Origin: Promethearchaeota archaeon
Lineage (GTDB): Archaea > Asgardarchaeota > Lokiarchaeia > Sigyniarchaeales > Promethearchaeaceae
Direction of reading: 5' to 3'
DNA length: 64,000 bases
Assembly (NCBI GenBank): GCA_016933055.1
Contig: JAFGBS010000014.1
Coordinates: forward strand, 1 to 64,000
The notes beneath the pieces were generated by a model, which saw only the letters and a list, made by a program, of their open reading frames with translations, was not told the origin of the DNA and ran no database searches. The translations under genes and the position numbers were made by a program. The first letter of the stretch is position 1. Every line of letters begins with the position of its first letter. This document shows, piece by piece, positions 1 through 49,893 of this stretch.

Positions 1-83
1 GAGGCTTCGAGAAATCAACTTCTTAGTATAGGCTGGAAAAAAGAAGCGGATAAGCTTTTATCAGCTATTAATATGTATGAAAA
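1..83 (+). repeat. 83-bp exact direct repeat, copy 1
   Basis: Bases 1-83 are identical to 775-857 and then diverge sharply. The two copies are exactly two repeat units (774 bp) apart in the giant helical repeat gene. Because the identity already holds at base 1, it may extend upstream. Confidence 0.95.
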
Positions 84-3000
84 TTTCTATCAAAAGGATG
101 TTCTAGATAGAAAGAAGCTCCAGCTAATAGAAAAAATGGATGAACAGGAGAAAAAACGATTGCAAGAAACTATTCGTCTGCAAAAAGAAGAAGACGAACT
201 AAAGGAAATGGAACGGCTAAAAAAATTAACAGAAATAGAAAAAAAGAAAGCTTTAGAGGAGGAAATCAGCAAACAAGTATTTAAACAGATAGAAGAAATT
301 GAAAAGGAAGTAAAAGAATATAATGAACACCCTATAAATGAGAAAATCACTAGTGCAAGCCCCTATTTGCGTGCAAAAAATATATATCAGTCCGCTCGAG
401 ATGAGTTACTGAAGATTGGGTGGAAAATTGAAGCAGACAAATTGCTAACACCCATTTCAATGTATGAAAATCTCCATCATAAAGATCAAATGGAACGAGA
501 AAAACTTCATTTGATAAAGAAAAAGCAGATGGAAGAACAAAAAAAACTAGAAGAATCAATACGATCACAAACAGAAGAAGTAGAACGAAGAGAACAGGAA
601 AAACGACAGAAGTTAGAAGAGATAAGCAAAAAGAAAGAACAAGAAGACCAAATAAGCAAAGTCACATTCCAAGCGATTGAAGATATTGAAAAAGAAGTTA
701 AATTCTATAAGGAACACGCACTTGCAGAGCATTACGCTTTGGACTGTCCGTATTTGAGAGCTAAGAATGTATATGAGGCTTCGAGAAATCAACTTCTTAG
801 TATAGGCTGGAAAAAAGAAGCGGATAAGCTTTTATCAGCTATTAATATGTATGAAAAATTGCTCTATACAGATGAAATAGAGCGAGGAAAATTCCTTGAA
901 AAACAAGAAAAAGAGAAAGAAGAGAAAAGAAAATTATACGAGTCTATTCAAATACAAAAAGAAGAACGAGAACGACAAGAACGAGAACGAATACGCGCAC
1001 TTAGGGAGCAAGAATTACAAAAACAACACGAAACAGACGTAAGTGAGAAAGCGTTTCAATTAATTGAAGATATTGAGAAAGACGTTACACATTATAGAGA
1101 GCGAGTGAAGATAGAAAACTATCATCTACCCTGCCCTTATGATCGAGCTATAGAAGTCTATAAAACTGCTCAGAAGATGCTCATGGAAATAGGCTGGAAA
1201 AAGGAAGCGGATAAACTCACCAATAGTATACGCGTATATGATAGATTATCTAATGAAGATTTGGAAATTCGGAACAAATTCAAAGCGAAATTAGAAAAAG
1301 AAAAAGAAGCAGAAAGAGAACTGCAGGAAACCATTCAAAGAGAAAAGGAACGTCTTTTATTGGAAGAAGAAAAAAGAAAAAGCGAATTGGAAAAATTTGA
1401 TAAGAAAAAAAGGGAAACCGAACAACTGCAGCAATCTGCATATGAAAAATTAGAAGCAGGAAACCGTTATATTCAAGAAAAAGAGTTTGACAAAGCTTCT
1501 GAAGAACTACAAGAAGCACTTAAACTCTTCAAGAAGATCAAATGGAAATCCGGTATTAAATTAACCGAAAATGCAATAAAATATAAGGAAAATGAACAAG
1601 AGAAATTTGAGCGTTTACTCCAGCACGAACGTCTCGCTTTGCAAGAAAAAGTGAAGAAAGAGCAAGAATTCCAAGAATTCTTAGAGGAACAAAGAAGAAT
1701 TAAAGATCAAGAAGAGCAGAATAGGAAATTGGAATTATTACGCATTGAAATGGCAAGTAAAAAAGTAAGTGAACAACAAGAAAGTGCATTCAATAAATTA
1801 GAAGAGGGAAATGATCTTGTTAAAATCCGTGAATTTGATAAAGCAAATAAACTCTACTTAGAAGCATTGAGCATTTTCCAAGATATTGGTTGGGTAGATG
1901 GTGTAGAGAAAACTAAACAATCTATTTCTCATAATCTAATTGAACAAGAACGCTATAAGCAACATCTGGAATTTCAGAAAAAGCAAGAACAAGAAAGACA
2001 AAAAGAAGAGCAAGAGTTAAACGAATTAATAAGAAAGAGGCAGGAATTAACACAATTGGAAGAACAAAAAAAGCGATTACAAATCGAACAGCAACATGAA
2101 CAAGCTGAGAAAATTAAACAAAGACAACAAGAAGCGCTTGAATTACTAGAACAAGGTAATGAAAAAACCACCCAAAATCTATTTGATGAAGCGGAAAAGG
2201 ACTTCAATCATGCGATGACAATATTCCAAGAAATAAAATGGAGTCATGGGATTAAGATCACCGAAGAAGTACTGAAACACAATGCTGAAGAAAGAAGTAG
2301 ATTCTTACAATTACAAAAGAGAGATGAAAAAGCACGCCTTGAGCAAATTAAGCAACAAAAAGAATTGGAACAGATGTTAGCTAAACAAAAATTAACGGCT
2401 CAACAGGAGGCACGACTAAAAGAGTTACAACAAGCTCAAGAAACGGAGAAAAAATTCCAAATTCAATCTATGCAAGAAGAAGCTATGCTATATTTAGAAA
2501 AAGGTAACGAAGCGATACAAATTAAGAAGTTCAATCAGGCTAATGCGCTTTTTGCTTCTGCTATGAAGATCTTCCAAGAAATGGGATGGCAAAAAGGAAT
2601 TGAAATGACGAATAGTGCCTTAGATTACAACCAAAAAGAATTGTTAAAATTCGAAAATGAAAGACTGCGAGAAGAGCAAAAGAAGCAAGAAGCTTTAAGA
2701 AGGCAAGAAGAAATTAACCAACTTATCAAGGAATCAAAAGCAGAAGAAATACAGAAGCAACTTGAATGGAAAAAGAAGTTGGAAGAGAAAACACAGCGTA
2801 TTGACGAAGAAAATAGCATAAAAGATCAAATTTTTGCACTACTTGAGAGAGGAAGTAAGCTTGCTGCGAAAAATGAATTTCTCTCTGCAATTGAGTTATA
2901 TAAAAAGACTATACCCCTATTTGAGAAAATCTCTTGGCCACTAAAACGGGATCAAGTAATTGATCTTATTGACTCTACTCAACAGGATTATGATAACTAT

Positions 3001-3939
3001 CGCAAGCATTTGGCAAAAGAGGAAGCAATACGGAAAAAACAGGCTGAAGAAGAAGAACAAATGAGATTGCTGATCCAAAGTGAACAAGAGAAGGAAAAAG
3101 CACGCCAGAAACTTATCCAACAGCAGCAATTTGAGCAGCAAGAACGTGATAAACGGAATGAAGAATTACGAAAAGAAGCGGCAGAAGAAATCAATAAGGC
3201 AAGCGTGATGCTAGAACGGCGAAAATTTGAAAACGCTATAGAAAGCTTGAATATTGCTCTTTCAAATTTCAAAAAACTCGGTTGGGATAAAGAGGCAAAA
3301 GTTACCGAAGAAAGAATTGCTGAAGTGAACAAGCAAAGACGAGAAACCTACAAACCCATTGATCGTGAAGAATCAGCGAGTGATATGGAAATTTCTGAAC
3401 AAGGGTATGGCCAAATAGAAGAGGCAGATAAATTCATACGACAAAAAAAATATCGAAAAGCACTTCCCTACTTAGAGGAGGCTGCACGATTGTTTGAAAA
3501 AATTCAGTGGACCAAAGCTATTAAGATGGTTGAACGTCGAATTCGTGAAACGGAAAAATTAATCACAGAAAAAGAGGAACTAATTGAAAAATTACGTTCT
3601 CGTCGCTCTCGAAAAACAGAAAAAGAAGCATACCAGCTTTTGGAAAAAGTAGATAAATTTCGACGAGAAAATCATTATGATTATGCATTAACTTCTGCAA
3701 AAGAAGCTCAAAGAATATTCCAGGATTTGAAATGGGAAAAAGAAGCAGCTGAATTAGATAAATTGATTCATACTATTGAAAAGGAGAATGAGGAACAGAA
3801 AGTAGTACGGACCCAGGAACAAAGCGAAAGAATGGAAAAAATTAAGGTAGAGGAAGAAGAAGAAAGAAAGATTCAAGAAATAATCGAGGAGAGACGAAGA
3901 AGGAGGAGAGAGACCCGCCAGAAACTCAAGGATGAATAA
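1..3939 (+). CDS. Giant charged helical repeat protein with 12 TPR-like W modules (5' end outside window)
   Basis: The frame is open from base 1, so the true start lies upstream; the first ATG at 73 is internal. The protein is almost entirely helical and rich in E, K, Q and R. Twelve modules, each ending in a conserved tryptophan (motif like IGWKKEADKL or IxWxxGI), are joined by long charged helices. Three kinds occur in order: units carrying PYLRAKNVY-type helices, units with a LExGN...FxxA...FxxI.W pattern, and shorter units at the C-end. The FDKA..Y..A pattern resembles a TPR hairpin. Tryptophan codons lie at 34, 421, 808, 1195, 1543, 1891, 2239, 2587, 2935, 3283, 3508 and 3733. No enzyme motif, signal peptide or membrane segment is visible. 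A smaller protein of the same kind is at 45071-46930. Function unknown; a cytoskeletal, scaffold or ruler role is inference. Confidence 0.85.
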   Translation, partial: EASRNQLLSIGWKKEADKLLSAINMYENFYQKDVLDRKKLQLIEKMDEQEKKRLQETIRLQKEEDELKEMERLKKLTEIEKKKALEEEISKQVFKQIEEIEKEVKEYNEHPINEKITSASPYLRAKNIYQSARDELLKIGWKIEADKLLTPISMYENLHHKDQMEREKLHLIKKKQMEEQKKLEESIRSQTEEVERREQEKRQKLEEISKKKEQEDQISKVTFQAIEDIEKEVKFYKEHALAEHYALDCPYLRAKNVYEASRNQLLSIGWKKEADKLLSAINMYEKLLYTDEIERGKFLEKQEKEKEEKRKLYESIQIQKEERERQERERIRALREQELQKQHETDVSEKAFQLIEDIEKDVTHYRERVKIENYHLPCPYDRAIEVYKTAQKMLMEIGWKKEADKLTNSIRVYDRLSNEDLEIRNKFKAKLEKEKEAERELQETIQREKERLLLEEEKRKSELEKFDKKKRETEQLQQSAYEKLEAGNRYIQEKEFDKASEELQEALKLFKKIKWKSGIKLTENAIKYKENEQEKFERLLQHERLALQEKVKKEQEFQEFLEEQRRIKDQEEQNRKLELLRIEMASKKVSEQQESAFNKLEEGNDLVKIREFDKANKLYLEALSIFQDIGWVDGVEKTKQSISHNLIEQERYKQHLEFQKKQEQERQKEEQELNELIRKRQELTQLEEQKKRLQIEQQHEQAEKIKQRQQEALELLEQGNEKTTQNLFDEAEKDFNHAMTIFQEIKWSHGIKITEEVLKHNAEERSRFLQLQKRDEKARLEQIKQQKELEQMLAKQKLTAQQEARLKELQQAQETEKKFQIQSMQEEAMLYLEKGNEAIQIKKFNQANALFASAMKIFQEMGWQKGIEMTNSALDYNQKELLKFENERLREEQKKQEALRRQEEINQLIKESKAEEIQKQLEWKKKLEEKTQRIDEENSIKDQIFALLERGSKLAAKNEFLSAIELYKKTIPLFEKISWPLKRDQVIDLIDSTQQDYDNYRKHLAKEEAIRKKQAEEEEQMRLLIQSEQEKEKARQKLIQQQQFEQQERDKRNEELRKEAAEEINKASVMLERRKFENAIESLNIALSNFKKLGWDKEAKVTEERIAEVNKQRRETYKPIDREESASDMEISEQGYGQIEEADKFIRQKKYRKALPYLEEAARLFEKIQWTKAIKMVERRIRETEKLITEKEELIEKLRSRRSRKTEKEAYQLLEKVDKFRRENHYDYALTSAKEAQRIFQDLKWEKEAAELDKLIHTIEKENEEQKVVRTQEQSERMEKIKVEEEEERKIQEIIEERRRRRRETRQKLKDE
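775..857 (+). repeat. 83-bp exact direct repeat, copy 2
   Basis: Second copy of the exact repeat found at bases 1-83. The intermediate unit at about 388-470 is clearly different in sequence, so the identity is not simply the general similarity between units. Confidence 0.95.
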
Positions 3940-4296: not shown

Positions 4297-4617
4297 ATGA
4301 AAGAACAACTTCAAAAACACCTTAAAGATGGTGAACCGTGGGAAAAAATGATTACGGATATTCCAGGGGTTTTTATTGTCCGAGTTCCTGGACCAAAAAC
4401 TAATCCCAAAAATGCACGATTAATGCTTGAGATCAATCCTGTGGATGAGGATGGAAAACCCAAAAAAAGAAAAGGATTATTTTTATCTGATCGAGAAACC
4501 TACATTCAGTATTTTGAATTACTTAGTGATGACCGAATCAATAAAATTCTACTGACTTTAGAAGAAGTAAATCCGAAAAATCAGTCCAAATCGATGAAGA
4601 AACTAAAAATTGAATAA
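4297..4617 (+). CDS. Conserved-looking hypothetical protein, 106 aa
   Basis: I do not recognise a characterised family. The protein is small, charged and cytosolic in appearance, with no membrane segment. It starts MKEQLQKHLKDGEPWEKM, has a strand-rich middle (GVFIVRVPGP, ARLMLEINPVDEDGKP, RKGLFLSDRETY) and a helical C-terminal third. The regular alternation and the lack of low-complexity sequence suggest a real folded protein. It sits alone between the RHH regulator, divergent, and the eL18 ribosomal operon 117 bp downstream. The upstream palindrome may regulate it. Confidence 0.7.
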   Translation: MKEQLQKHLKDGEPWEKMITDIPGVFIVRVPGPKTNPKNARLMLEINPVDEDGKPKKRKGLFLSDRETYIQYFELLSDDRINKILLTLEEVNPKNQSKSMKKLKIE

Positions 4618-4734: not shown

Positions 4735-5088
4735 ATGCCAGCTCCAACAGGTCCAAGTAATAGCATTACAAGAAAACTCATCCGATCTTTATGGAAAACC
4801 AACACAGGAATTTGGAGAAGAATCTCTGAGATATTATCAAAGTCTTCTCGTGATCGACCAGAGATAAATTTGTACCGTTTGAACAAATTAACAAAAACCG
4901 ACGATATAGTAGTGGTACCTGGAAAAGTACTGGGTGCTGGTACTCTAGATCACCCCATTACAATTGGATCACTTATGATTTCTCAACTCGCATTAAAGAA
5001 GTTGACCGAGTCCAAAGGAAAATTCATGACAATCGAAGAAATGATGAAGAAATACAAAAAAGGGAGTAACATAAAAATACTGATTTAG
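4735..5088 (+). CDS. rpl18e: Large ribosomal subunit protein eL18
   Basis: eL18 is a structural protein of the 50S subunit in archaea and eukaryotes. At 117 aa it has the usual archaeal length. It carries the typical INLYRLNKLTKTDDIVVVPG and KVLGAGTLDHPITIG segments, followed by SQLALKKL. The ATG is preceded by a GGTGGA ribosome binding sequence. It heads the eL18-uL13-uS9 operon, a classic archaeal order; uL13 follows 10 bp downstream. The rpoN, rpoK and uS2 genes that often follow this trio are absent here. Confidence 0.96.
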   Translation: MPAPTGPSNSITRKLIRSLWKTNTGIWRRISEILSKSSRDRPEINLYRLNKLTKTDDIVVVPGKVLGAGTLDHPITIGSLMISQLALKKLTESKGKFMTIEEMMKKYKKGSNIKILI

Positions 5089-5098
5089 GTGACGATCT

Positions 5099-5560
5099 TT
5101 GACTAAATGGAAGAAATTGGATGCAACTGGCTTGATATTAGGAAGGTTATGTAGTATAATCGCAAAACGTGCTTTAATGGGTGAGAAAATAGTAATCACG
5201 AATGCAAAATTCGCCGAAATTTCTGGAAATCGAGGTCAAATTATTGAACGCTATCAGCATTATAAATCGATAAAAACTGCTTCTAATCCGAAAAAAGGAC
5301 CATTTCGCGTAGGTATCCGACCGGACATATTCGTTCGAAAAACTATTAGGGGAATGTTACCAAAAAATGATCGCGGTAAACAAGCATTAGGAAATATCCA
5401 TGTATATATTACCGGAATTCCCGAAGATAAAAATCAATATGGTGAATGCGAAGATTTTACTCTTGGAAAAAAATATCAAGCATTTAATCTTGGAAGGAAA
5501 TCAGTTTCCGTGGAAGATCTATGTAAAGTAATTGGTTGGAATCAAGGAGGGTTATCATAA
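5099..5560 (+). CDS. rpl13: Large ribosomal subunit protein uL13
   Basis: uL13 is a core 50S protein. The 153-aa product shows the family pattern: WKKLDATGLILGRLCSIIAK at the N-end, then VRKTIRGMLPKNDRGKQAL. The start is TTG at 5099, ten bases after eL18, preceded by a GGTGA motif; no ATG or GTG fits better. The stop codon shares one base with the uS9 start (TAATG), so translation of the two genes is probably coupled. Confidence 0.96.
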   Translation: MTKWKKLDATGLILGRLCSIIAKRALMGEKIVITNAKFAEISGNRGQIIERYQHYKSIKTASNPKKGPFRVGIRPDIFVRKTIRGMLPKNDRGKQALGNIHVYITGIPEDKNQYGECEDFTLGKKYQAFNLGRKSVSVEDLCKVIGWNQGGLS

Positions 5561-5961
5561 TGAAAGTAGTTCAAGAAACGGGGAAGCGAAAGAGAGCTGT
5601 TGCTCGGGCTACATTAAAGCCTGGAACGGGATTAGTCAGAATAAATAGTGTTCCAATAGAACGATATCAACCTGAAATCGCCCAAATGAAGTTAAAAGAG
5701 GTATTCCTTATAATTAAAGATCCCAAATTAAAAGATGTGGATATAAATGTGAGAGTATACGGTGGCGGTGTTATAGGAAGAGCAGATGCGGCTCGAATGG
5801 CGATTACACGAATTATAAACAAATATTTGGGTAAAAAAAGAGTTACAAAAGCCATTAGAGAATATGATAAGTCCATGCTTTCGGGTGACAAACGTAGAAT
5901 AGAACCCAAAAAGTGGGGTGGACCCAAAGCTCGGGCAAGAGTACAGAAATCCTACCGATAA
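5560..5961 (+). CDS. rps9: Small ribosomal subunit protein uS9
   Basis: uS9 sits at the 30S head, and its C-terminal tail (here VQKSYR) reaches toward the P-site tRNA. ATG 5560 is chosen over an in-frame ATG at 5536 because it follows a strong AAGGAGG at 5544-5550 and starts with the family's VVQETGKRKRAVARATL; this gives 133 aa. Conserved segments RVYGGGVIGRADAARMAI and KYLGKKRVTKAI are present. It is the last gene of the operon and converges with the minus-strand gene at 5987. Confidence 0.97.
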   Translation: MKVVQETGKRKRAVARATLKPGTGLVRINSVPIERYQPEIAQMKLKEVFLIIKDPKLKDVDINVRVYGGGVIGRADAARMAITRIINKYLGKKRVTKAIREYDKSMLSGDKRRIEPKKWGGPKARARVQKSYR

Positions 5962-44451: not shown

Positions 44452-45006
44452 TTATTGGGCTGTTACAATCCCAGAACTGGTTAGAATTAATTCCTTTTTT
44501 GTTTGAGATAATATAATATCCCGCATTGCTTCCATATTAGACCTTTTAATCGCTATCATACCATAAGTCTTTACGCCTAAACGTTTAGAGACCTCTTCCG
44601 GAGTGAGACTACCGACCAAATCTTGCTTATTTGCAATAGCGATGATCTCGCTACCCAATTTTTTTCCGTATTTCTCTAGCATGGTTTTGGTTTCATTAAC
44701 ATTTTTTTCCGATGAATCTGTCACAACAACTGTTAGTCCAGAACCTTTGATCCATTCATCCCACAAAAACTGGAAACGTTTTTGACCCCCAAAATCCCAG
44801 ACCATCACTGATATGGTATTATTTTCGCATTCTTCGAAGTCAATTTTTTCAACATCTACGCCAATAGTTGGGATCCGCTGAATTTGTATTTCCTTTCCTT
44901 GAAGAAGGCGTAGTAATGATGTTTTCCCGACTCCCCCTTCACCGATAAAAATACATTTTGAACCGTTATCGATCATCGTTGACCACAATGTCTTGTAGTG
45001 AGTCAA
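44452..45006 (-). CDS. Arf/Arl-like small GTPase
   Basis: All nucleotide motifs are present: P-loop GEGGVGKTS, switch I PTIG, switch II WDFGGQ, and NKQD, the form typical of Arf/Arl rather than Ras/Rab (NKxD). There is no N-terminal glycine for myristoylation after the start and no C-terminal prenylation Cys. The product is 184 aa; an internal ATG (MIDNGSKCIFIG) would shorten it by ten. It is on the same strand as, and 64 bp downstream of, the helical repeat protein at 45071-46930, so the two may be co-transcribed. Asgard genomes are known for many such GTPases. Confidence 0.9.
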   Translation of the reverse strand: MTHYKTLWSTMIDNGSKCIFIGEGGVGKTSLLRLLQGKEIQIQRIPTIGVDVEKIDFEECENNTISVMVWDFGGQKRFQFLWDEWIKGSGLTVVVTDSSEKNVNETKTMLEKYGKKLGSEIIAIANKQDLVGSLTPEEVSKRLGVKTYGMIAIKRSNMEAMRDIILSQTKKELILTSSGIVTAQ

Positions 45007-45070: not shown

Positions 45071-46930
45071 TCATTTGTTTTTTTTTTTACTTGCTTTGCG
45101 TATTAATTCTTTAAATACCTGTATTTGTTTTTCTTCCTCGGGTATTTCTACATTTGTCCTATATTCCTCTTCAGTTAGGTGTTGTTCACGTTTTTGTTCC
45201 TCTTTTTGTTTTACCACTCCTGAAATCATCTTAGATATATTCTGGAGCTCTTGAAGTTCTTGTTGCTTACGGAAATCTTCAGCTTGTTTCTGCGCTTTTT
45301 GTTGCTGCTTTTCTTGCTGTTGGACTAGTTGCTTTAATTGCAAATCAGAAAGTTGTTGGTTTTTCAACTTAAGAATTTTCTCAATTTCTTCTTCCATATA
45401 CGGAATCTGTTCAAACCATTTTAGAGTTTTAAATTTTTCAATAGCTTCCTCGTAGGCACGAATAGCACTGTCAAATTCTAAATTCTTTTCATATTTTTTG
45501 GCTTCATCTAAATATTTAAATGCTGTATTCTCAATTGATTGAATAGATTGTTGCTGTTCTTGGAATTTAAGGAGACTGGCTTTTTGAGACTCCTTTTCAA
45601 TATCAAATTCTTTCATGTAATTTATAATTCGGGATAAAAAATCCTCCAATAATGAAATAGCATGATTTTTAATATGTTCTAAAGTTTCGATTCTTTGTTT
45701 ACGTATGTCTAAATTTTTATACAAAATGTCTATGATAGATTGTACTTTCGATTTTTCCTCCGACCATTGCGATTTTTCTATCAAATGATGGGCAACTTTA
45801 TACAACTCAATTTTTCGTTTGGATGACGGTTCATCTGTACCTTCGATTTGGGAAGCATCAGTTATAGTTTCAAATACTTGTTGTTCGTAAGATTTCGTTT
45901 TAGGTTGCAGAGAAGAAGATTCTGTTGAATGGAAGGGTTTACCTTTCTCATTTTCTTTCTCCAATATTTTTTCCTTAAAATATTTACGGATGTCATCACT
46001 AAGACGAATTTTTTCGATATACGCAAGATGCTCTTGCTGTTCCATTAATTCATGCTGAAATTGATTTTCCCTAACCGTAGAAATTATTTCGGTTAATCGA
46101 GATACTCCATCCTGCCATCCTACATTGATAAGATTTTGTGCAGCTTGTTGCAAAATTTGGTAGATAGAGGCATAATTGAGATTATCAATTGCTACTTCAC
46201 ATTCTCGAATAAGCTGGGATCCCCTAATTAAATAGTTATATTGGTTTTTTTTACGCTCATCGAACTCCTTAATACTAATCTTCCGAGACTCAATTTCTTT
46301 TTGGAGAGTTTCTCGACTTTTTCGAAACACATCAAAATCCTCTAATTCTGGTTGAACTATCTGCTTTTGGAGAGATATGTTATAATTCTTTAAGTCTTGA
46401 ACCCATTGATCTATCTGTTCTCGTATTCGTGGAGTATATGATTGCCATCCAATAGAATTCAGCAAAATTATCGCTTGATTATAATTTTTTATTGCTTGTT
46501 CAAAGTTTTTTTGGTTGGCAAGAGTAACTCCCGCATCCATTAAATCAAAGGCTTCTCTCTGGATATTTTCTTCATGCTGTTTGTGCAATTCAAATTCTTT
46601 GAGACTTTGATTTTGGGTGCGATATAACCTTCGGGGGGTTTCTAACTGGGATTTTTCTTCAACAACCGTTGTATCTTCACTTTTTATTGGGATACTTATC
46701 TCTTCAGTGATCGATTCCCGTAATTCTTGGATTACTTCCTGAATTTTTTTAGTGATATTTGTCCATCGCAATTCATTTAAAATATCAATTAATTCCAAAT
46801 ATATCGTAATTGCTTCCTCTTTCTTATCTTCGTTAACAAGAGATTCGGCTTGTTGCAACATCAAAAATGCTTTGTCTTGCAGTTCCCGTACATCACTTTT
46901 ACGTTTTTGTACATCGTCCTTAAATTCCAT
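45071..46930 (-). CDS. Helical repeat protein with five W-ended TPR-like modules
   Basis: 619 aa from ATG 46930; a TTG at 46948 adds six residues. Modules such as EAFDLMDAGVTLANQKNFEQ, AIKNYNQAIILLNSIGW and FDSAIRAYEEAIEKFKTLKW repeat the pattern of the giant protein at the window start. Conserved tryptophans are at about residues 62, 168, 278, 395 and 511 when numbered from the TTG; spacing here varies (106, 110, 117, 116). Between modules lie charged Q/E/K-rich helices; the C-end is poly-basic (KASKKKNK). No catalytic motif. It lies between an Arf-like GTPase gene and a divergent roadblock/longin-like gene. A scaffold or GTPase-effector role is inference. Confidence 0.85.
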   Translation of the reverse strand: MEFKDDVQKRKSDVRELQDKAFLMLQQAESLVNEDKKEEAITIYLELIDILNELRWTNITKKIQEVIQELRESITEEISIPIKSEDTTVVEEKSQLETPRRLYRTQNQSLKEFELHKQHEENIQREAFDLMDAGVTLANQKNFEQAIKNYNQAIILLNSIGWQSYTPRIREQIDQWVQDLKNYNISLQKQIVQPELEDFDVFRKSRETLQKEIESRKISIKEFDERKKNQYNYLIRGSQLIRECEVAIDNLNYASIYQILQQAAQNLINVGWQDGVSRLTEIISTVRENQFQHELMEQQEHLAYIEKIRLSDDIRKYFKEKILEKENEKGKPFHSTESSSLQPKTKSYEQQVFETITDASQIEGTDEPSSKRKIELYKVAHHLIEKSQWSEEKSKVQSIIDILYKNLDIRKQRIETLEHIKNHAISLLEDFLSRIINYMKEFDIEKESQKASLLKFQEQQQSIQSIENTAFKYLDEAKKYEKNLEFDSAIRAYEEAIEKFKTLKWFEQIPYMEEEIEKILKLKNQQLSDLQLKQLVQQQEKQQQKAQKQAEDFRKQQELQELQNISKMISGVVKQKEEQKREQHLTEEEYRTNVEIPEEEKQIQVFKELIRKASKKKNK

Positions 46931-47026
46931 GGAATTCACTTCTATCAAGAGTATTAATGAGTAAGAAATTTAACACATAAAAATATCAAATTGGTATTGT
47001 TACAACTCATTTCGTAAATCAATTAA

Positions 47027-47920
47027 ATGTTGGTTTTTGAGATAATGCACACCATAGATTCTCTTTCGAGTTTTCTGGAAAATCAGACACAGAAAAATGC
47101 TAAATATGCATTTCTATTAGATACAGGTTTAATCATAAAAAGTACTATATCCGAAGAGAATCTTATGCAACTAGTGAAGTTCATCCCTCGTATATGTAAA
47201 GAAGTGAAACCTGGGACTTATTTACATAAATCTAAATTATATATCTATCGATTAACATCCCAATTTATTATTTTTTTGCTAACCAACAAAGAACACCAAG
47301 ATGTCGATGCGATTTTAGAAGAAGTTGCTGATCGTTATTCACTAAAAATCTCTCGAGAGTTCAACCTTCAATCTCAAGGCACTATAGGACACATAATTAA
47401 AACCATTGTGTTTTCAGTAACAACAGAAAGAGGACCCGAGTTGATGGATTGGATGGTAAATGACCACGCTGTTGGAGATAAGGATGCTTATAAAATTGCC
47501 ATGAAAACTATGCTAAATCTAACTGATGAAATTGAAGGGGCAAAAAATCGTGTACTGTTTTTTCAACCATTTCTAAGTTATAATTCCTTAGGTATCTCCT
47601 ATTTATTTCAGATCCCCTATCCTGGAGCACGAGGGGGGGCTTTTGATAGCGCTATCACAATTCTCGTCGATTTTCAGCATCGTCCTATAATATACTCTTC
47701 ATATAAAGAATTAGAAGATATTTTACAAAAATTCGAACCATTAATTGCTAAGAAATTTCAAGAGACCTATATAGAAGACGCTTGTGTGAAAAGTGATGAT
47801 TTTAATGGTATCTTAATTGACTTACACAATCGAATTAATACGATTCAGATGAAAATGGTTGATTCTGAGATATTAATGGATGAAATGTTGGACGCTATTC
47901 GAGCTTTAAACGAATTATAG
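47027..47920 (+). CDS. Putative roadblock/longin-type two-domain protein
   Basis: 297 aa (a start at the seventh codon, MHTIDSL, is also possible). Residues ~20-110 (KYAFLLDTGLIIKSTI, ... KLYIYRLTSQFIIFLLTN) have the strand-helix-strand order of roadblock/longin folds. A second module (GPELMDWMVNDHAVGDKDAY, LGISYLFQIPYPGARGGAFD, AITILVDFQHRPIIYSSYKE) repeats an alpha/beta sensor-like pattern. A C-terminal helix follows. Such domains regulate small GTPases in eukaryotes and Asgard archaea. Its gene is divergent from the helical repeat gene by about 100 bp and is followed 14 bp later by the RACE-like gene. Assignment is by pattern only. Confidence 0.5.
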   Translation: MLVFEIMHTIDSLSSFLENQTQKNAKYAFLLDTGLIIKSTISEENLMQLVKFIPRICKEVKPGTYLHKSKLYIYRLTSQFIIFLLTNKEHQDVDAILEEVADRYSLKISREFNLQSQGTIGHIIKTIVFSVTTERGPELMDWMVNDHAVGDKDAYKIAMKTMLNLTDEIEGAKNRVLFFQPFLSYNSLGISYLFQIPYPGARGGAFDSAITILVDFQHRPIIYSSYKELEDILQKFEPLIAKKFQETYIEDACVKSDDFNGILIDLHNRINTIQMKMVDSEILMDEMLDAIRALNEL

Positions 47921-47934
47921 GACTGAGGTAAAAA

Positions 47935-49893
47935 GTGAAACATATCTTAATTGTGGAACCAATATCAAAACGCATTGAGGTTAAAAGTGGTGCTAGCATT
48001 TATGATGCACTAATTGCTTTAAATTATCCGATTGGCGCGTTGTGTGGTGGAAAGGGAACTTGTGGAAAATGTAAAATCTTATGTGTTAAAAATCAAGAAA
48101 ATTTGTCCCCCCTAAACGTAATTGAGAAAAATTTATTGACTCCCGAGGAACAAAAAAATAATATACGACTAGCATGTCAATCTTTCATTTTTGGGGATAC
48201 TCGCATCTCTTTATTAGAAGGATTAATCTCTCATGGGAATAAAATTCTGATTGATAGCGATTTGCTTGCAGTTAGAGGTAATATCCAAGAGAAATTTGAT
48301 CCATTCATCAAATTAATGCATCTAAAAATTCCTCTTCCTACTTTGCATAACAATGGGGATGATTTATACCGTATGACCTCAATTATTCGAAAATCTTTTC
48401 CTGAACGGGTTTTGCATTTGTCCCCAATTATGATAGATAATGATCTTTATACGATCACAAGATCGATGTCCACTAAAATTCGATCTAAGGAAGGCAAAAT
48501 TACATTATATTATTGGTTAAAGGATGAAACTCTCGAAATCCTTGATGTTGAAGAAGGTTATAATAAGAAATTATATGGTATTGCAATTGATTTGGGTACC
48601 ACTACTATTGTAGGATATTTAATAAATTTACTTTCAGGGGATATTGTATCAATATCCTCGATGTTAAACCCTCAAGTAAGTATTGGAGAAGATTTGATAA
48701 CCAGAATAAGTTATATTTGTCAAAATGAAGCCAAACATACAGCACAAACATTACTGATTTCTGCGTTAAATCAGATCCTTACAGATACCTGTGAGAAAGC
48801 AAAAGTTTCCAAACTAGATGTAAAGGAATTAGTTGTTGTAGGCAACACGGGCATGCATCACATGTTATATGGTCTCAATTCAGAACAATTGGCTCGTACA
48901 CCCTTTGTCCCTGTATTTAAAGCCCCAATTTATATCAATTCAGCACAATTGGGGATTCAAGCTTCTCCACAAGGGCGTTTATATAGCCCCCCAGTTGTTG
49001 CTGGATTTGTAGGTACAGACACGATTGGGTGTATAGTATCATCCCGAATTGATACCTACGAAAAATTTAGCTTGTTAATTGATATTGGTACAAACGGAGA
49101 ATTAGTTATGGGAAATCGAAAGGGGCTGATTACGGGTTCATGCGCTGCAGGATCTGCTTTAGAGGGAGCTCACATTTCATTAGGAATGCGAGCAGCAGAA
49201 GGTGCTATTGAATCTCTTACAATTGATCCAAAATCTTTTCACTGCACTATTAATACTATCGGAAATCTCAAACCAATTGGTATGTGCGGCTCAGGGTTGA
49301 TTGATTTAATTGCCGAAATGATAAAATGCAAAATAATAACTCGAAACGGAAATTTTAACGTCCATAATCTTCCAGAACGAGTATTATATTCTTCAAATGG
49401 AGATTTAAATTATATCATTTATGATTCTGAAAAAGACGGAATCTATTTTGAGGATGACCGAAAAAAATTCACTATTGGGATATCTCAAAAAGACATCCGA
49501 CAACTACAATTAGCGAAAGGTGCATTTCTCTCAGGTGCTTATTTACTCAATAAACAGTATCCTTCCGAAAATTTAGAACAGATTTTACTTGCAGGAGCAT
49601 TTGGAAGTTATATTGATAAAGAAAATGCAAGGATTATCGGATTATTTCCAGAAATAACACCCACCAAAATTTATCAAATCGGAAACGCTGCTGGATTAGG
49701 AGCACAAATTTGCTTGAAAGATCAAAATATGAGAAAATTTGCTAATGAGATTGCCAATAAAGTGGAATATTTCGAAATTGCTTCATCCAAAGATTTTCAG
49801 AAGGAATTTGCATTAAGTATGTATTTTCCCCATTATGAATTACACCGATTCCCATCATTAAGAACTATTTATCAAGACCTCCCAATCCGATAA
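47935..49893 (+). CDS. RACE-type ASKHA protein with N-terminal [2Fe-2S] ferredoxin domain (corrinoid activation)
   Basis: These proteins use ATP to reduce Co(II) corrinoid proteins back to Co(I). The plant-type ferredoxin domain has Cys37, Cys43 and Cys46 (CGGKGTCGKC) and a fourth in IRLACQSF near residue 80. The ASKHA ATPase domain shows GIAIDLGTTTIVGYL (phosphate 1), VVVGNTGMHHMLYG, LLIDIGTNGELVMG (phosphate 2) and QILLAGAFGSYID (adenosine). It is 652 aa, the usual length. The start is GTG 47935 behind a GAGGT. A likely partner, the corrinoid protein at 60117, is in this window, but no methyltransferase is. Confidence 0.9.
   Translation: MKHILIVEPISKRIEVKSGASIYDALIALNYPIGALCGGKGTCGKCKILCVKNQENLSPLNVIEKNLLTPEEQKNNIRLACQSFIFGDTRISLLEGLISHGNKILIDSDLLAVRGNIQEKFDPFIKLMHLKIPLPTLHNNGDDLYRMTSIIRKSFPERVLHLSPIMIDNDLYTITRSMSTKIRSKEGKITLYYWLKDETLEILDVEEGYNKKLYGIAIDLGTTTIVGYLINLLSGDIVSISSMLNPQVSIGEDLITRISYICQNEAKHTAQTLLISALNQILTDTCEKAKVSKLDVKELVVVGNTGMHHMLYGLNSEQLARTPFVPVFKAPIYINSAQLGIQASPQGRLYSPPVVAGFVGTDTIGCIVSSRIDTYEKFSLLIDIGTNGELVMGNRKGLITGSCAAGSALEGAHISLGMRAAEGAIESLTIDPKSFHCTINTIGNLKPIGMCGSGLIDLIAEMIKCKIITRNGNFNVHNLPERVLYSSNGDLNYIIYDSEKDGIYFEDDRKKFTIGISQKDIRQLQLAKGAFLSGAYLLNKQYPSENLEQILLAGAFGSYIDKENARIIGLFPEITPTKIYQIGNAAGLGAQICLKDQNMRKFANEIANKVEYFEIASSKDFQKEFALSMYFPHYELHRFPSLRTIYQDLPIR

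Follow-up and report, generated by a model that had tools for sequence, protein, structure and literature searches.

The systems closest to the giant repeat protein encoded at the left edge of contig JAFGBS010000014.1 of a Promethearchaeota archaeon (Lokiarchaeia, Sigyniarchaeales; assembly GCA_016933055.1), whose first 64,000 nucleotides form the window analysed here, are found among several kinds of domain and rod. MIT domains (PF04212), as in Vps4, katanin p60 and MITD1, are three-helix bundles of about 75 residues; the repeated units of the present family share that architecture and sequence similarity in helices 1 and 2, and many of them match the family, but in known MIT proteins the domain is present once or twice, whereas here at least 15 units are set on long helices and those of the window fall below the family cut-off. 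TPR units offer the same helix-turn-helix with an A-x-x-x-Y-x-x-A core and a close local shape match (LGN, FLU), but stack at 34-residue steps into a superhelix, whereas a 71-residue linker isolates the bundles described here and their TPR scores are sub-threshold. Spectrin rods also consist of three-helix units of constant length with a helix continuing from unit to unit; spectrin units are, however, about 106 residues long and abut one another, while the present bundles are separated by long single helices and give no spectrin match. Nebulin and tropomyosin resemble the window protein in being rod-like and in keeping a residue-exact repeat length under sequence change, but their periods match actin, and a filament partner is here only hypothetical. 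Finally, the K/E/R-rich single alpha helix of the CAF-1 KER region, 128 A long, has been reported to act as a spacer (PMC10335832), although it is one unrepeated, DNA-binding helix of a eukaryotic chaperone.

Twelve in-frame TGG codons of the window gene stand exactly where the first-pass annotation of the sequence had placed them, at intervals of 387 (three), 348 (six) and 225 (two) bases, that is 129, 116 and 75 codons. A profile hidden Markov model built from the units recovers all twelve, with every tryptophan in a single column (L..IgW, at the end of helix 2), and a tryptophan-to-tryptophan distance of exactly 116 residues recurs in 163 of 481 unit pairs of homologues, so the spacing is more than a chance effect. 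Counting instead between two anchors, that of helix 3 (normally W+11) and the phenylalanine of the helix 1 that follows, gives a linker of exactly 71 residues in 277 of the 481 pairs (39 open reading frames), and this one length unites the tryptophan spacing classes of 114, 116, 117, 127, 129 and 130 residues: the surplus of the 127, 129 and 130 classes lies between the helix-1 anchor and the tryptophan (45, 47 or 48 residues instead of 34), and the difference in the 114 and 117 variants falls between the tryptophan and helix 3. In the window, all nine long linkers measure 71 residues and both short ones 30. The earlier proposal of three blocks with different pitch thus gives way to two pitches, since the 116 and 129 classes have an equal distance from tryptophan to the next helix-1 phenylalanine, and the 13 residues that the latter has in addition sit in the hairpin between helices 1 and 2.

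That length is kept despite deep divergence, as the first-pass annotation had claimed, is borne out both within the gene and between genomes. Linkers of the 116 class in the window share 10-30% of their amino acids, with 11% expected from composition, and identity at their third codon positions (0.34-0.51 against an expected 0.37) is near saturation; across the non-redundant set of 172 linkers, median identity stands at 18%. The gene at 45071 codes for a related protein of a second family, A, and the window protein belongs to its paralogue, family B. Among non-redundant Loki family-A orthologues (12 with 18 units and 10 with 14 units) the core intervals show no true length change; an apparent value of 68 at interval 16 of the 18-unit class and interval 12 of the 14-unit class proved to be a slip of the anchor, the tryptophan distance there still being 117. 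The N-terminal intervals 2 and 3 of the same proteins differ in 11/66 and 47/66 pairs (18 units) and in 34/45 and 38/45 pairs (14 units), which demonstrates that indels do occur at the family-A locus. Orthologues with freely varying linkers, the outcome named beforehand as contrary to selection, were looked for and not encountered for the 116 class. The comparison of these sequences thus gives good support to selection against linker indels and to selection on length, the core inference of the first-pass annotation, while a ruler role remains unproven.

The fixed length is also tied to linker composition. Lysine, glutamate, glutamine and arginine make up about 61% of residues in the 172 non-redundant linkers, and the proline fraction is 0.000. 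Along the linkers, residues of opposite charge stand at i,i+3 and i,i+4 more often than expected (z 7-18), and hydrophobicity shows a period of 3.45-3.5 residues (z 5.4). Conserved hydrophobic positions, counted from the helix-3 anchor, lie at +31 (93%), +35 (84%) and +53 (79%), and also at +46. K/E/R-rich, proline-free and with salt bridges at i,i+3/i+4, the linkers have the sequence features of single alpha helices, and the heptad signal leaves room for their pairing in a coiled coil. In the non-redundant set a length of 71 residues is found in 240/330 proline-free and 5/98 proline-containing linkers (Fisher p about 1e-35, indicative only, the sequences being related).

Whole units, by comparison, have been gained and lost with no change in unit length, their number ranging from 9 to 25 per complete reading frame. 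It follows that the period is kept and not the total length, and the same range rules out an end-to-end tape measure. A conserved super-repeat was likewise rejected: the similarity periods, of 6 and 4 units, differ between genera, which points to whole-unit duplication behind them. Nor do the helical length variants (-41, -3 and +37 residues) fit any shared quantum of helix phase or length.

AlphaFold2 prediction of residues 470-900, from an alignment of 34 related rows, returned three helices spanning 93 residues each, with reverse helices of 17-18 residues between them; the long helical linkers proposed earlier are thus recovered in a model. Helix 3, linker and the following helix 1 are predicted to form one continuous helix, an arrangement that matches, in prediction only, the spectrin-like principle of a helix running from one three-helix unit into the next. 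At 1.5 A per residue, less the reverse helix, the pitch is estimated, not measured on coordinates, at roughly 110-115 A, near 11 nm.

The units themselves appear to resemble MIT and TPR three-helix bundles, and we call them MIT/TPR-like without assigning them to the MIT family. Of 58 units compared with Pfam, 17 matched MIT at E<=0.01 (best 6.4e-7), more than matched any other family, TPR families coming next, and the family-A paralogue of this genome, taken as a whole protein, scores 36.8 bits against MIT (PF04212; cut-off 30). The window protein gave no Pfam MIT match at E<=0.1, only sub-threshold TPR matches (best TPR_14, 19.1 against a cut-off of 23.5 bits), no spectrin family among its Pfam matches (the repeats of 116, 129 and 75 residues also differ from the roughly 106 of spectrin), and no match in PHROGs, NCBIfam or PDB sequences. 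Adjacent 34-residue repeats, as expected of TPR, are not seen: a helix pair comes only once in 75-129 residues and is set apart by linkers. A single unit modelled alone has helices at 2-20, 24-40 and 44-77, in keeping with the three-helix MIT fold of about 75 residues. Foldseek related it to the TPR of LGN (template modelling score, TM, about 0.7 over 57 residues) and, at a TM of about 0.6, to MIT domains from Sulfolobus Vps4, MITD1 and katanin, with no match in the PDB below an E-value of 0.001; for the four-unit model, TM by query was at most 0.15 and again no match had E below 0.001. The best E-values of a profile search against the PDB were inflated by repeated designed TPRs, the single-domain matches including the MIT domains of Vps4 and MITD1, and when the unit profile was compared with those of Vps4 MIT domains from this order, the probability was 90, over helices 1 and 2 only.

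Judged by sequence searches, the rod family is nearly universal in this Lokiarchaeia order and was not found in the other Asgard genomes sampled. A four-unit model matches 53/53 listed genomes of the order and, in a sample of 196 from the phylum, no genome of another order, not even the four from the same class; a one-unit model matches 56/56 in the order and 0/4 in the rest of the class. The window protein alone as query finds 55/59 order members, and three of the remaining four match the model, leaving G017. A search for related loci with the window protein alone found none; the same search with the family-A alignment gave 41 Lokiarchaeota/Lokiarchaeia loci, the named carriers being Candidatus Lokiarchaeota or Lokiarchaeia metagenome-assembled genomes. 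Among the titles and abstracts found on Asgard or Lokiarchaeal coiled-coil, giant, tandem MIT and spectrin-like proteins, none describes this family, preprints and most subscription journals lying outside that scope.

Taken together, the residue-fixed linker hints at a molecular spacer in which the physical period is what counts. We propose that the order possesses two paralogous giant proteins, A and B, the window holding most of one B protein, and that each would be a rod, probably cytosolic, of MIT/TPR-like bundles threaded on long helices, with helix 3, charged linker and next helix 1 merged into a helix of about 93 residues and a bundle every 11 nm or so. Purifying selection would remove linker indels, each bundle needing a fixed distance and rotation. 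Over this divergence, residues could be gained or lost in step by a helix on its own or by a homodimer in register; that every unit, in both paralogues, has an equal linker argues that the units would have to be interchangeable with respect to a partner with a period of its own. The rod would most likely pack against a periodic structure, be it its own copies, the paralogue or a filament that docks the bundles, and its most likely role would be to scaffold or cross-link, at regular intervals, a polymer that forms part of the cytoskeleton or remodels membranes. The homology of the units, the constant 71-residue linker and the gain and loss of whole units are observed, while helix continuity and bundle fold are predicted; for the reading as a whole our confidence stops a little short of even.

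Lokiarchaea are relatives of the ancestor of complex cells, and giant periodic scaffolds of the spectrin or nebulin sort are regarded as eukaryotic; an order-wide pair of giant rods with residue-fixed linkers would be a prokaryotic counterpart of such scaffolds. The family would also provide a clean natural case of selection on length with sequence nearly free. An actin cytoskeleton and thin protrusions are known from Lokiarchaea (PMC9834061), and tomograms could be searched for the predicted pitch, about 11 nm.

Several points weigh against the reading of a rod fitted to a periodic partner. The fixed length is strong, not universal: one orthologous interval invariably measures 68, type-II linkers (those of units with the longer hairpin) in Lokiarchaeota family B are mostly 60-68, and the A paralogue of this genome has linkers of 61, 65 and 72 residues (the fourth is 71), its tryptophan distances of 106, 110, 117 and 116 agreeing with the variable spacing previously attributed to it. 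A 108-residue linker occurs in genomes G003, G004 and G005. The control intervals that drift in length mostly contain proline and are thus not matched for helicity; Rad50 arms were considered as a helical-linker control and dropped, zinc-hook matches in 11/59 genomes being too few. The 93-residue helix and the pitch both rest on prediction, AlphaFold2 often renders long charged segments as helices, and in the model the middle of the second linker is of low confidence, with the helix broken by DSSP near 205-214. The periodic partner, lastly, is itself deduced.

Of the competing accounts, the one that survives best is a plain helix constraint, in which each residue inserted or deleted would turn the following bundle by about 100 degrees, or an indel would upset a hydrophobic stripe, so that an ancestral length is inherited and nothing external is measured. 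The salt-bridge and weak heptad patterns of the linkers fit it, and so do the variable linkers, which mostly contain proline or glycine and are probably not continuous helices. The helical variants of 30, 68 and 108 residues are, however, not whole turns apart, so phase alone is not kept across classes, and some proline-free type-II linkers range from 62 to 68; we regard this account as a real possibility toward which the evidence does not lean. A coiled-coil register, in which the linkers would be paired with a second chain, whether self, staggered, or A with B, and the 71 residues would keep both chains aligned, would explain the hydrophobic period and the conserved hydrophobic sites at +31, +35, +46 and +53, as well as a length common to both paralogues; it appears unlikely, as there is only about one strongly hydrophobic site per heptad and the A paralogue of this genome has few units, mostly with other linker lengths.

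Still more doubtful is the view that the bundles are working MIT domains that would bind ESCRT-III (endosomal sorting complex required for transport) tails, the rod arraying them along an ESCRT-III polymer. The frequency of MIT among the Pfam matches of the units and the unit shape shared with Sulfolobus Vps4, MITD1 and katanin speak for it, and the host genome encodes Vps4 with MIT and two ESCRT-III proteins; yet the window protein lacks an MIT match and has sub-threshold TPR matches, the Loki Vps4 comparison covers helices 1 and 2 only, and ESCRT is widespread in Asgard archaea (PMC10936438), whereas the rod family is confined to one order.

It is tempting to ask whether the rods might be periodic side-binders of the Lokiactin filament, with the actin lattice holding linker length constant, as it does in nebulin. 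The Lokiactin rise is 27.9 A in situ (PMC9834061), so that four subunits (4 x 27.9 A = 111.6 A) come close to the estimated pitch of about 111 A, a hint only given how loose that estimate is, and the 37-residue longer linker of relatives would add 55.5 A, about two subunits. The short class (75 codons; 41 residues less, about 61 A) fails the fit, the match may quite possibly have arisen by chance, and we consider such binding distinctly improbable. Equal lengths in the absence of selection, through recent tandem duplication or gene conversion, are very improbable: window 1-86 is 99% identical to 775-860, a near-identical 86-nucleotide stretch shared by units of the 129 class, linkers of this class share 45-54% of their amino acids, and some 127-class units of G005 are almost identical, but the 116-class divergence and saturation described above and the recurrence of equal lengths across genera and both paralogue families argue against it. 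Recent duplication, raised by the first-pass annotation as what could undo its argument, is hence refuted for the 116 class as a general cause and holds in part for the 127 and 129 classes: judging from their similarity, the 129-class units and some 127-class units of G005 are younger. The G005 locus L040:3434-10684 shows twelve successive 127-residue intervals, several almost identical, consistent with recent duplication or homogenisation of type-II units.

Features of the window and their coordinates (the window begins with the first base of contig C22)
Feature	Coordinates	Strand	Remarks
Giant family-B gene, 3' part, 1312 codons	1..3939	+	5' end open, lost at contig edge; contig C16 very probably carries the start
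Stretch 99% identical to 775-860	1..86	+	explains contig break in repeat
Three 129-codon intervals, type-II units (longer helix 1-helix 2 hairpin, ..CPY..A motif)	34..1194	+	linker 71 residues each; tryptophan positions, profile
38 nucleotides matching end of contig C16	582..619	+	identity
Six 116-codon intervals	1195..3282	+	linker 71 residues each; linker amino-acid identity 10-30%
AlphaFold2 segment, residues 470-900: four predicted bundles, three joining helices	1408..2700	+	mean pLDDT (predicted local distance difference test) 85.6
Single MIT/TPR-like unit folded alone, three predicted helices	1417..1650	+	AlphaFold2 pLDDT 98
Two 75-codon intervals	3283..3732	+	linker 30 residues each; bundles almost adjacent
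Helix 3 of last unit and charged C-terminal tail	3733..3939	+	basic end (ERRRRRRETRQKLKDE)
106-residue protein, no assigned family or function	4297..4617	+	kept downstream neighbour of giant gene in relatives
L18e, L13 and S9 ribosomal protein genes	4735..5961	+	downstream synteny anchor with G005 and G003; named from sequence, without family search
Family-A paralogue, 625 residues, five units, linkers 61, 65, 72, 71	45071..46948	-	passes Pfam MIT cut-off as whole protein

The missing start of the giant gene very probably lies on contig C16 of the same genome, where positions 2-1483 of the minus strand (L010) encode 494 residues from an ATG, with four further units, and run off the contig end. 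The terminal 38 nucleotides of C16 are identical to those listed for the window, and these near-identical stretches, together with that shared by 1-86 and 775-860, indicate that assembly stopped inside repeats. The join is further supported by synteny: in G005, a genome in a single contig from the host's family, the order is a divergent UPF0182 membrane protein, a 136-residue-like protein, the giant gene (2417 residues), the 106-residue protein, L18e, L13 and S9, and its left and right halves are carried by C16 and C22, respectively. In G004, G014, G023, G012 and others, the giant gene again has these left neighbours and the 106-residue one beside it. If the gap between C16 and C22 interrupts only one unit, 52 codons would be missing from a protein of about 1860 residues with 16 units, though the loss may be larger.

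Other family-B proteins (L042, L045 and others) end in a similar basic tail, for example IIEERRRRRRETRQKL and IIEERKRRRREARKKL, perhaps a binding site. The UPF0182 membrane protein on C16 (L010:2152-5358, plus strand; 1068 residues) is a divergent neighbour of the family-B gene in many relatives and a possible functional partner.

Around the family-A paralogue, an Arf/Ras-like small GTPase gene (44452-45006, minus strand) follows 65 nucleotides downstream on the same strand, possibly in one operon. A RACo-like corrinoid-activation protein (47935-49893, plus strand) adjoins family A both here and in Lokiarchaeota (about 42% identity); the functional link is not obvious, and this common neighbour supports the assignment of the 45071 gene to family A. 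A 297-residue protein with no Pfam match (47027-47920, plus strand) also adjoins family A here, and does so in loci L057 and L061. Elsewhere, L139 and L141 (G006 and G004) encode MIT-like units held apart by long linkers that are rich in proline and probably disordered, which makes these proteins a flexible counterpart to the rods, and the MIT/TPR-like unit occurs in small proteins of 211-410 residues (G023:C7:33326-33550, G054:C21:166123-166347 and G028:C161:19770-20003), which are possible single-unit partners.

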